The position numbers and the translations under genes were made by a program. The notes beneath the pieces were generated by a model, which made no database searches, was not told the DNA's origin, and saw nothing but the letters and a program-made list of their open reading frames with translations. Positions 36,006 through 39,044 of a stretch of DNA of 64,000 bases are shown piece by piece. The stretch comes from a bacterium (lineage in GTDB: Bacteria; Armatimonadota; JACIXR01), in contig JACIXR010000008.1 in assembly GCA_014360495.1 (NCBI GenBank), positions 1 to 64,000 on the forward strand. The letters are read 5' to 3'. Positions within the stretch are counted from its first letter, which is position 1. Each line of letters begins with the position of its first letter.

Positions 36006-36908
36006 ATGAGAATTGGAATCTGCTGGTTATATGCGATAAGCAAGTATGGGTATCCTCCCTCACTCGCTGATACTTTCAAGGTCATCAGAGAGATGGCGGG
36101 TTTGGGATTTAAATATATTGAGCTGGAAGGGGTAGGGGAGGAGAATTTGCGGGAGATTTATGAGAATAGAAGGGATTTGAAGAGCCTTTGCGACGATTTG
36201 GGGCTCGTTGTGCATAACTTCTGCCCTGTCCTTCCCGATATCGTGAGCTTGGAGAAGGGGAAAAGAGAGCGCGCGAGGGATTCGTTCAAATTGGGGATTG
36301 AATTGGCTAAATTCTTCGGCTGCGAAACAATCCAAACGGATAGCTTCACACCTCCTTTGAAGTTCATCGGCGATAGACCATATAAGGAAATGGTTGATTT
36401 CGGTCTTCAATTTAAGGTGGAGATAGACCCTTCCTTCAGCTGGGATGAACAATGGAAGGTTTTGGTTGAAACATTTAAGTTCTGCGCCCAGGAGGCGAGG
36501 AAAGCGAATCTGCGCTTCTGCTTGGAGCCGAGGGTAGGGGAGATGATATGCACTACCGATGGTATTCTGCGTCTTATGGATTGGGTGGATGATGATAATT
36601 TTGGAGCTGTCCTTGATACCGGACATTTGAATGCTCAGAAGGAGATACTCGCCCTTTCGGTTGAGAAATTGGGGAAGAGGATATTTTATGTCCATCTATC
36701 CGATAACGATGGGAAGGTGAACGAACATCTTGGGTTGGGAAAGGGAAATATAGATTTTGAGGAGATAATCAAGGGCTTGTTGAAGCATAATTTCAAGGGC
36801 GTTATAGGGTTGGATATAGGGAGGATACCCAATTTAGATGAAGAGGTAAAGGCTTCAAAGGAATATCTTCTAAATATCTTTGAGAGATTGGGAGTTGAGG
36901 CGGAATGA
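36006..36908 (+). CDS. Sugar phosphate isomerase/epimerase (TIM barrel)
   Basis: A 300-residue AP_endonuc_2-type barrel with GFKYIELEGVGEENL near residue 36, CLEPRVGEM near 177, AVLDTGHLN near 200, YVHLSDNDG near 227 and VIGLDIGR near 262. The Glu/Asp/His metal set is in place. It follows the beta-helix gene after 28 bases, and its stop overlaps the TtuA-like gene by ATGA. The substrate is unknown. Confidence 0.85.
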   Translation: MRIGICWLYAISKYGYPPSLADTFKVIREMAGLGFKYIELEGVGEENLREIYENRRDLKSLCDDLGLVVHNFCPVLPDIVSLEKGKRERARDSFKLGIELAKFFGCETIQTDSFTPPLKFIGDRPYKEMVDFGLQFKVEIDPSFSWDEQWKVLVETFKFCAQEARKANLRFCLEPRVGEMICTTDGILRLMDWVDDDNFGAVLDTGHLNAQKEILALSVEKLGKRIFYVHLSDNDGKVNEHLGLGKGNIDFEEIIKGLLKHNFKGVIGLDIGRIPNLDEEVKASKEYLLNIFERLGVEAE

Positions 36909-37468
36909 AGTGCAGGATTTGCGGGAAAGAGGCGGAATTTAAGATAAAAAGCTATAACCTCGCGATTTGTTCGGATTGTTTCTTGAATAGGCTTCATAAA
37001 AGGGTGGAGGAGACGATTAAAAGGTATCGGTTGTTTGATAAAGGGGAGGAAATCTTCGTAGTGGCAGGAGGAAAAAATAGCGATGTTTTGGCTAATTTGC
37101 TTTCTGAGATGGGTTATAGGGTTGAGTTTGCGAGCTCTGAGGAGGAGGTGGCGGAAGGGAAGATAATAGCGATGGGGGATGTTTTGGAGGATGAGGTGGC
37201 GAATGCCATCTGGAAGATTTTGAATTGGGAGTTGAGAGAGGATGCTCTCCCATCTTACTATGAGAGAGGGAGGAAGATAGTCAAGCCTCTATGTCTATTG
37301 ATTGAGGAGGAAGTTTTTATATATAGGAATTTGAAACGGATTGAGGAAGTTAGGGAAAAGGAAGAGGGGATAAAGGAAAAGATGAGTGAATTAGGGATTT
37401 TGTCTGCGGGTTTCATGCTTTCCTTTTATAAGTCTTTAGTCAAAGAGATAGGCTTATTGCGGGATTGA
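36905..37468 (+). CDS. Shortened, degenerate TtuA/TtcA-like protein
   Basis: A 187-residue protein. C3, C6, C22 and C25 form an N-terminal zinc ribbon followed by a helical segment, as in the tRNA 2-thiolation enzyme TtuA. The PP-loop that should read SGGKDS is AGGKNS (residues 54-59), followed by the expected strand-helix (GYRVEFA). Next comes GDVLEDEVANAIWKIL, matching the TtuA GHNxDDEA region, and VKPLCLLIEEEVFIYRNL, matching its late VKPLxxLxExE motif. The central part with the catalytic cysteines is missing and the length is about 60% of normal. Thiolation activity is therefore doubtful; a regulatory or nucleotide-binding role is possible. The assignment is from motif comparison by eye. 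Confidence 0.6.
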   Translation: MKCRICGKEAEFKIKSYNLAICSDCFLNRLHKRVEETIKRYRLFDKGEEIFVVAGGKNSDVLANLLSEMGYRVEFASSEEEVAEGKIIAMGDVLEDEVANAIWKILNWELREDALPSYYERGRKIVKPLCLLIEEEVFIYRNLKRIEEVREKEEGIKEKMSELGILSAGFMLSFYKSLVKEIGLLRD

Positions 37469-37474
37469 AAAGGA

Positions 37475-37538
37475 GGGATTGCCAGACCTTCCTTCGTCGG
37501 ACTCGCATCTATAGGTATAGGTTTTAAATGACAATTCC
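37475..37538. repeat. Dispersed repeat, copy A
   Basis: GATTGCCA, a variable centre, then CGCATCTATAGGTATAGGTTTTA and GACAATTCC; a direct repeat of copy B at 37641. Confidence 0.75.
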
Positions 37539-37574
37539 TCGCCATAGCAAGCTCAGAACCTCTCTGTCATTGCG

Positions 37575-37600
37575 AGCCTGACTGCGTACGCAGTCAGGCT
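37575..37600. repeat. Perfect 26-base palindrome
   Basis: Arms AGCCTGACTGCGT and ACGCAGTCAGGCT meet with no loop. It is flanked by CATTGCG and GGCAATC, the usual ends of REP-like units whose core varies. Confidence 0.8.
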
Positions 37601-37640
37601 TGGCAATCTTGTATTTAAATGCAAATACATTCTTTAAGAA

Positions 37641-37709
37641 GAGATTGCCACGGGCTCCCCGTAGGGAGCCCGCGCATCTATGGGTATAGGTTTTAGCGAC
37701 AATTCCCTC
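37641..37709. repeat. Dispersed repeat, copy B
   Basis: GAGATTGCCA, hairpin CGGGCTCCC-CGTA-GGGAGCCCG (37651-37672), then CGCATCTATGGGTATAGGTTTTAG and GACAATTCC. The inverted copy C at 53183 shares both flanks. Confidence 0.75.
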
Positions 37710-37748: not shown

Positions 37749-37776
37749 TTGACTATTTGAAAAATGTTGTTATTAT
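37749..37776 (+). promoter_or_regulatory. Promoter of the thioredoxin-PDO operon
   Basis: TTGACT (37749-37754) and TATTAT (37771-37776), spacing 16. The predicted start site lies in the palindrome at 37782-37798. Confidence 0.6.
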
Positions 37777-37781
37777 TATAA

Positions 37782-37798
37782 ATACCCCCTAGGGGTAT
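37782..37798 (+). promoter_or_regulatory. Putative CsoR/CstR-family operator
   Basis: ATACCCC-CTA-GGGGTAT is a perfect 7-base inverted repeat directly after the -10 box. The ATACCCC...GGGGTAT form is that of operators bound by CsoR (copper) and CstR (persulfide) repressors. Binding here would block transcription initiation of the thioredoxin-PDO pair. No csoR/cstR gene is in the window. Confidence 0.6.
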
Positions 37799-37819
37799 TT
37801 TGAAAGGAGGTTTTATACT

Positions 37820-38332
37820 ATGAGGTCTAAGCTTGTTTTATTAGTTCTGTTTTTGGTTGTAGTTATAGGGCTCGTTGTCCTAATGAGTGGAAGAAAGGAG
37901 AAAAGTTCTACTACTGTTCCGCCTGTGATTTCAAATACTCCCGCCGTGAATGTTCCCACTGCGGGAGGGGGAGCGAAAAAGGAAGAAGCAAAGACGCAGG
38001 AGGGGGATGTTATCAGTTTGGATGAGGGCAATTTTAACGAGTTCATAAATTCTGATTTGCCAGTTATCGTTGATTTCTGGCAGACGGGCTGTGGAGCGTG
38101 TATGATGCTTGAGCCGATTTTCAAGGAAGTGGCAGGAGAGATGAAAGGGAAGATGAAATTCGCAATGTGTCAAATAGATTATAATGGCAATGAGAAATTC
38201 GCCTATAAATATCACATTGAAGCCACGCCCACTATGATAGTTTTCAAGAAAGGGAAGGAAATCGGGCGAATAATCGGGTATAGAGAGAAGGATTCTCTTA
38301 TGGACGCCTTGAAAGATTTCCTTAGAAAGTGA
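37820..38332 (+). CDS. Membrane-anchored thioredoxin-like protein
   Basis: A 170-residue protein. Residues 1-24 form an uncleaved membrane anchor or signal, followed by a low-complexity linker (about 25-62). A thioredoxin domain has the active site C91-G-A-C94 in DFWQTGCGACMM and the cis-proline in EATPTMIVF. It would act on thiols outside the cytoplasmic membrane. AAAGGAGG is the ribosome site. It lies 31 bases upstream of the PDO gene behind a putative thiol- or copper-responsive operator. Confidence 0.9.
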   Translation: MRSKLVLLVLFLVVVIGLVVLMSGRKEKSSTTVPPVISNTPAVNVPTAGGGAKKEEAKTQEGDVISLDEGNFNEFINSDLPVIVDFWQTGCGACMMLEPIFKEVAGEMKGKMKFAMCQIDYNGNEKFAYKYHIEATPTMIVFKKGKEIGRIIGYREKDSLMDALKDFLRK

Positions 38333-38363: not shown

Positions 38364-39044
38364 ATGGCGATTATCTCGGATAAGGACAAGGAGTATATCA
38401 AGAAATTGTTTTCCGAGAAGTTGGACAAGGAAGTAAGGATTTTGATGTTCACACAGAAGGAGAGTCCATTGGTGGTGCCAGGTGTTGAGGAATGCACATA
38501 CTGCAAGGAGACGAGGCAGATTTTGGAGGAGCTATGCGAGCTCTCGCCCAAGCTGAAATTGGAGGTTCATGACTTCTATGGGGAAAAGGAACTTGCCGCG
38601 AAGCACGGGGTTGATAAAATACCCGCCACATTGCTCATTCCCGAGGGAGAGGAAACGGCGAGGGTGAGATTCTACGGCATACCGAGTGGATACGAGTTCG
38701 GCTCCCTTATAGAGGATATAATAGATATGTCAAGGGGCGAGACCTCGCTTTCCCCGGAAAGCAAACAGAAGCTTGCATCTCTAACGAGCGATATCCATAT
38801 CCAGGTCTTTGTGACGCCGACCTGTCCCTATTGCCCATCCGCTGTAAGGACGGCGCATCAGATGGCAATGGAGTCAAAGCATATAAAGGCGGACATGATA
38901 GAGGCAATAGAATTTCCCCATTTGGCGAACCGCTATAGGGTGAGAGGAGTGCCGAAGACGATAGCCAATGATATTGTGGAGATAGAGGGGGCTCTTCCTG
39001 AGCAGATGTTTGTGGAGAGGGTTTTATCGGCTGTTAAGAAATAA
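38364..39044 (+). CDS. Protein disulfide oxidoreductase (double glutaredoxin fold, PDO)
   Basis: A 226-residue cytoplasmic protein made of two thioredoxin-fold units, each with a CxxC site: C44-T-Y-C47 and C154-P-Y-C157. This architecture is characteristic of PDO from thermophilic bacteria and archaea, where it forms or rearranges disulfides in intracellular proteins. IPATLLIPEG and VRGVPKTI give the cis-proline loops. It is the second gene of the thioredoxin operon and is followed by a strong hairpin. It supports a thermophilic host. Confidence 0.92.
   Translation: MAIISDKDKEYIKKLFSEKLDKEVRILMFTQKESPLVVPGVEECTYCKETRQILEELCELSPKLKLEVHDFYGEKELAAKHGVDKIPATLLIPEGEETARVRFYGIPSGYEFGSLIEDIIDMSRGETSLSPESKQKLASLTSDIHIQVFVTPTCPYCPSAVRTAHQMAMESKHIKADMIEAIEFPHLANRYRVRGVPKTIANDIVEIEGALPEQMFVERVLSAVKK

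Follow-up and report, generated by a model that had tools for sequence, protein, structure and literature searches.

A CsoR-type operator at the promoters of a thioredoxin-PDO operon and of bpsA suggests a copper switch rewired to thiol and polyamine genes in an uncultured bacterial genus

We found a CsoR-type operator across the predicted transcription start of an operon for a membrane-anchored thioredoxin and a protein disulfide oxidoreductase (PDO, which here does not stand for persulfide dioxygenase), and a second exact copy at the promoter of bpsA, the gene for branched-chain polyamine synthase. The reading that we prefer, with a rough probability of 0.55, is that both sites are type 2 CsoR-family operators, that the genome's single CsoR-family protein would repress both genes, and that its signal would be a thiol modification. 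The operator type is ordinary, but the two-gene regulon is unusual, and its composition suggests that an old copper switch has been rewired to thiol and polyamine genes in this uncultured genus.

The 17-mer ATACCCCCTAGGGGTAT (ATACCCC-CTA-GGGGTAT) occupies positions 37782-37798 of the window, i.e. the whole 64,000-nucleotide stretch that was analysed, and is its sole match at up to three mismatches (chance mean 0.11). The arms are perfect over 7 bp and can be extended to 9 bp (AAATACCCC-CTA-GGGGTATTT, 37780-37800). Since TTGACT-16-TATTAT stands just 5' of the palindrome, the latter spans the predicted transcription start, 5 nt 3' of the -10 box and 21 nt 5' of the thioredoxin ATG. A preliminary description had placed it there, and its sequence, its coordinates and the promoter geometry were all confirmed. 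The features of the region are:

37749..37754, + strand: -35 hexamer TTGACT (promoter scan, 10/12 consensus matches, spacer 16)
37771..37776, + strand: -10 hexamer TATTAT (promoter scan; TATTAA-5-ATACCCC in the sister species G002)
37780..37800, no strand: CsoR-type (type 2) operator, core 37782-37798, kept in G002 with the centre GAT
37803..37810, + strand: ribosome binding site AAAGGAGG, read from sequence
37820..38332, + strand: membrane-anchored thioredoxin, 170 aa, active site CGAC (PF00085, E 6e-23)
38364..39044, + strand: PDO, 226 aa, CTYC and CPYC (TIGR02187, 281.6 bits, cut-off 185)

Type 2 operators of the CsoR/RcnR family consist of two short G/C tracts with 2-4 bases between them, flanked by an AT-rich inverted repeat with TAC-X9-GTA (PMC3902906), and the palindrome has the G/C tracts, the outer AT-rich repeat and the TAC-X9-GTA spacing. 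It is also placed as such operators are, over the promoter or start of the regulated gene, with identical geometry in G002, including the 5-nt gap to the -10 box. The 15-base core, TACCCCCTAGGGGTA, is letter for letter contained in the copZA1 and copZA2 operators of Streptomyces lividans, which are bound by CsoR (PMC3902906); this identity supports the CsoR-type assignment made in the preliminary description. The likeness to these operators thus comprises the core, the TAC-N9-GTA inverted repeat and the two G/C tracts, whereas the genes differ: the S. lividans operators control copper export, and here a thioredoxin-PDO operon and bpsA lie downstream. A chance palindrome was ruled out by the genome count given below, the promoter placement and the conservation in G002. 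An intrinsic terminator of the upstream gene was likewise rejected, as that gene ends 310 nt earlier, no terminator was called and the location is that of a promoter.

The family matches bear out the earlier identification of a thioredoxin and a PDO downstream of the palindrome. The translated thioredoxin shows a hydrophobic anchor at its N terminus, and its active site is CSAC in both sister species versus CGAC here, while all four cysteines of the PDO are invariant in an alignment of six relatives. The gene 5' of the thioredoxin gene (36905-37468) encodes a TtuA-type N-terminal zinc (LIM) domain, with no match to a sulfurtransferase domain, and the order TtuA-LIM-like gene, thioredoxin, PDO recurs in the sister species G001, where the genes abut. 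The intergenic region between the TtuA-LIM-like and thioredoxin genes (37469-37700) is repeat-like, and 53202-53259 matches it at 75-80%; G002 has only a short counterpart of this region and G001 has none.

The genome (G000; 2.55 Mb, 97% complete) was covered by pattern searches, which underlie all genome-wide statistics. These returned two exact copies of ATACCCC-N3-GGGGTAT, against 0.008 expected for independent bases, and no copy of the reversed control pattern. The second copy is an exact match as well:

G000:C5:179475-179491 (locus L002): second operator, 26 bp 5' of bpsA

The bpsA product matches PF01861 with 304 bits, and its operator, which extends to TAGGGATACCCC-TCT-GGGGTATCCCTA, is preceded by TTGACA-16-TATTAT, read in the sequence. 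Both exact sites of the genome therefore stand at promoters, and the many promoter-unrelated copies that would have spoken against an operator were not encountered. The idea that the palindrome might precede rhodanese, TauE or copper-export genes did not hold up, as the genome scan gave bpsA as the second copy. Relaxed patterns yielded nothing beyond control numbers in G000. A wider regulon was also considered and rejected: one-mismatch sites and sites with other spacings occurred at or below control levels, and those fetched belonged to coding frames or a terminator. Likewise, the other TACCC-N(3-9)-GGGTA sites fetched in the genus all fell within open reading frames, except for one, an exact TACCCC-N3-GGGGTA of G001 (L195), which was discarded as an operator, its sequence being a terminator stem.

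Our simplest guess at why bpsA would belong to this regulon is a combined response to heat and redox conditions, bpsA and PDO being genes that thermophiles typically carry. The branched polyamines made by BpsA are tied to heat tolerance (2026 review). We found no transcriptional regulator of bpsA in the literature searched, and the 2026 review mentions neither a promoter nor a repressor. Control of bpsA by the repressor described below would, if true, be the first transcriptional control proposed for this gene.

Could the palindrome act in the mRNA rather than on DNA, as a 5' hairpin serving as stabiliser, thermometer or attenuator? The predicted hairpins of the bpsA leaders (-26.8 and -29.5 kcal/mol, z -5.0 and -4.1) would agree with such a role, but those of the trx-PDO leaders are no stabler than shuffled sequences (z -0.02 and -0.75), and RNA starting inside the trx palindrome, as predicted, would barely contain the whole hairpin. 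Moreover, the two genes and the sites elsewhere in the phylum share not just pairing but the arm sequence itself, which is that of a known protein-binding site, and we regard the RNA explanation as highly improbable. A perfect 13-bp hairpin is possible in the RNA of the bpsA leader (L002:1474-1525, L014:1495-1555); it is far stabler than shuffled sequences and may serve some function besides that of the operator.

Comparison with two congeners, G002 (record JACIXQ01) and G001 (CALITO01), revealed a conserved pair of sites. G002 carries both, with the same genes downstream and with the centres GAT (trx-PDO) and TAT (bpsA). G001 retains the bpsA site as GGGATACCCCTATAGGGTATCCC, with one arm change, and has no palindrome at trx-PDO, where the thioredoxin gene directly follows the upstream gene. 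As G001 groups with G000 in a repressor tree based on a 60-column alignment, a loss of the site in G001 is likelier than two gains.

The existence of a CsoR-family gene, on which the preliminary description depended, was established by a single locus:

G000:C2:195921-196142 (L001): sole CsoR-family gene of the genome (PF02583), between holB-like and MtaA/CmuA-like methyltransferase genes

Membership of the 80-aa protein in the CsoR/RcnR (DUF156) family is indicated by PF02583 scores of 80-81 bits (cut-off 22.8). Each of the three genomes of the genus has one such gene, in the common order holB-csoR-mtaA-like; no palindrome precedes these csoR genes, and they are unlinked to their supposed targets. 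At the X-Y-Z positions, where Cys-His-Cys binds Cu(I) in Mycobacterium tuberculosis CsoR, the proteins of G000 and G002 have Cys29-Ala54-Cys58 and that of G001 has Tyr29-Ala54-Cys58. Cys-His-Cys, the copper-sensing pattern, is present in most other phylum members sampled and in none of the three genus members. Two cross-linkable cysteines combined with a missing His ligand, the pattern of CstR, are found in G000 and G002 and are lost in G001, where the Tyr in place of Cys29 goes along with the missing trx-PDO site. FrmR- or RcnR-type sensing was dismissed because the residue pattern does not fit. The best PDB matches of the G000 protein are 7mq3 and 7mq1, which were deposited as csoR, have Ala/Asn and not His at the Y position, and which we take to be the persulfide sensor CstR of Streptococcus pneumoniae; in the 60-column tree, the genus forms a well-supported clade that does not join 7mq1. 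CsoR-family proteins without any sensor cysteines also occur in the phylum (L056, L057 and L053, of G032, G005 and G048, respectively).

The main doubt about this repressor assignment is an altered alpha-1 motif. In S. lividans CsoR, R57A abolishes and R54A severely weakens DNA binding; in the genus, the RLXR motif is changed to S8-L9-R10-I11, with Ser8 and Ile11 as equivalents of Arg54 and Arg57, while alpha-2 Gln35 (Q81 of S. lividans CsoR) is kept. With both DNA-binding arginines lost, the pairing of protein and operator is one that we infer, although the change need not be fatal, since the Arg57 equivalent is also missing from M. tuberculosis CsoR.

The lost arginines could also mean that some regulator outside the CsoR family binds the palindrome in this genus, and the distribution of the palindrome across the phylum bears on this. 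It occurs in exact form in 21 of 291 phylum genomes, and a CsoR-family gene is present in 18 of these 21 versus 113 of the 270 others (Fisher p 9e-5, kinship ignored). Outside the genus, it lies 16-47 bp 5' of csoR in eight genomes and, in two phylum genomes, 9 bp 5' of an HMA/CopA-like open reading frame, which marks it as a copper-type CsoR operator in the phylum as a whole. Three genomes have the palindrome and no CsoR match, which would fit a different regulator, but these show no evident redox, copper or csoR target and may thus be chance copies. Given the strong link of the palindrome to csoR genes and its 15-base identity with CsoR operators, we consider a regulator from another family unlikely.

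This phylum-wide pattern raises the question of whether the sites in the genus are ordinary copper operators and the repressor a protein that still senses Cu(I). In favour are the core, identical to copper CsoR sites, and other genomes of the phylum, where Cys-His-Cys csoR genes and HMA/CopA-like frames have the palindrome in front of them. However, the Y-position His is replaced by Ala in all three genus members, the X-position Cys is missing in G001, and the exact sites of G000 stand only at trx-PDO and bpsA, which are not copper-export genes, while no palindrome precedes its CopA-like gene (L174). The missing His ligand and the CopA-like gene without a site make copper control of the G000 operators, and with it the link to copper stress drawn in the preliminary description, unlikely; an unchanged copper regulator appears very unlikely indeed.

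With two cysteines kept and the copper-ligand His gone, thiol chemistry is the likely signal, and a thiol or sulfur switch, which fits both the repressor residues and the trx-PDO target, is more likely than a copper switch. A CsoR-family repressor positioned across the transcription start would block the trx-PDO promoter, and its release would allow the operon to be transcribed. Most likely this would be the genome's only CsoR-family protein, which would hold bpsA as well through the second operator. As in CstR, the signal would be a persulfide, polysulfide or disulfide linkage of Cys29 to Cys58' of the neighbouring subunit; once oxidised or persulfidated, these cysteines would cause release, and the membrane thioredoxin and PDO then made could reduce such bonds. 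Such a signal explains neither the presence of bpsA in the regulon nor the regulation of bpsA in G001, whose repressor has Tyr29.

Several known systems resemble the proposed one in part. CstR of Staphylococcus aureus responds through a C31-C60' cross-link (PMC5480029), and the persulfide-sensing repressors CstR (S. aureus, Enterococcus faecalis, S. pneumoniae) and YrkD (Bacillus licheniformis), both of the CsoR family, share with the genus protein the two cysteines and the lack of a Y-position His; the YrkD cluster comprises thiol/sulfur genes, including a hypothetical thioredoxin. However, known CstR genes adjoin sulfur-oxidation or persulfide genes, whereas the gene is unlinked here, the targets are trx-PDO and bpsA and not the CstR targets sqr, cstA/B, TauE or CoAPR, and the 60-column tree gives no support for grouping the genus repressor with CstR. 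TTHA1953 of Thermus thermophilus, a CstR-like, thiol-modulated regulator of the CsoR family, is likewise unlinked and binds DNA less well once it is disulfide-linked, but it recognises TACNNTACNNNNGTANNGTA, which lacks G-tracts, and controls Sox genes. SurR of the Thermococcales follows the same logic, its thiol-based redox switch keeping Pdo repressed until sulfur oxidises the protein (PMC12162507); as an unrelated archaeal winged-helix protein with a CxxC motif, it is an analogue and not a relative. Should our reading be correct, a repressor family that is small and well studied would have passed from copper to the control of two thermophile-typical genes, and thiol/sulfur stress, disulfide handling and branched polyamines would be linked in a concrete way that experiments can test. 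The G001 variant, which lost the operator and the Cys, and the altered alpha-1 motif could serve as natural tests of signal and DNA specificity in the family.

In other phyla, CsoR-type elements also appear, to judge from their sequences, at a PDO-csoR pair and at two PDO operons. We examined 486 kb of sequence surrounding PDO genes at 80 loci of other genomes: exact TACCCC-N(2-4)-GGGGTA occurred three times, whereas 29 permuted half-sites gave 0.07 occurrences on average and never more than 1. One of the three sites is that of G002; the others, palindromes of the GTACCCC-N-GGGGTAT type in an Anaerolineae MAG (L114, 2087-2103) and a Bacillota MAG (L141, 195-210), lie 7-8 nt 3' of a -10 box. 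The apparent operons are CoA_binding_2...PDO-OsmC in the former and CoA_binding_2-TrxB-like-glutaredoxin-like-GroES...PDO in the latter. Together with the cysteine pattern of the genus repressor, these operons make control by reactive sulfur plausible. CsoR-type repressors might even control PDO operons recurrently, as thiol or reactive-sulfur switches in several unrelated phyla, the genus being a case of a rewired copper regulon in which a Cys-Ala-Cys repressor co-regulates PDO/thioredoxin and bpsA; we propose this broader view tentatively and at somewhat less than even odds, the cases in other phyla being few and picked out after the fact. The PDO-csoR pair belongs to a Limnochordaceae MAG (L118:3001-4059), in which a csoR gene lies 60 bp 3' of PDO and CCCTACC-C-GGTAGGG about 40 bp 5' of it; its CsoR is of the Cys-His-Cys type and gives no pointer to persulfide.
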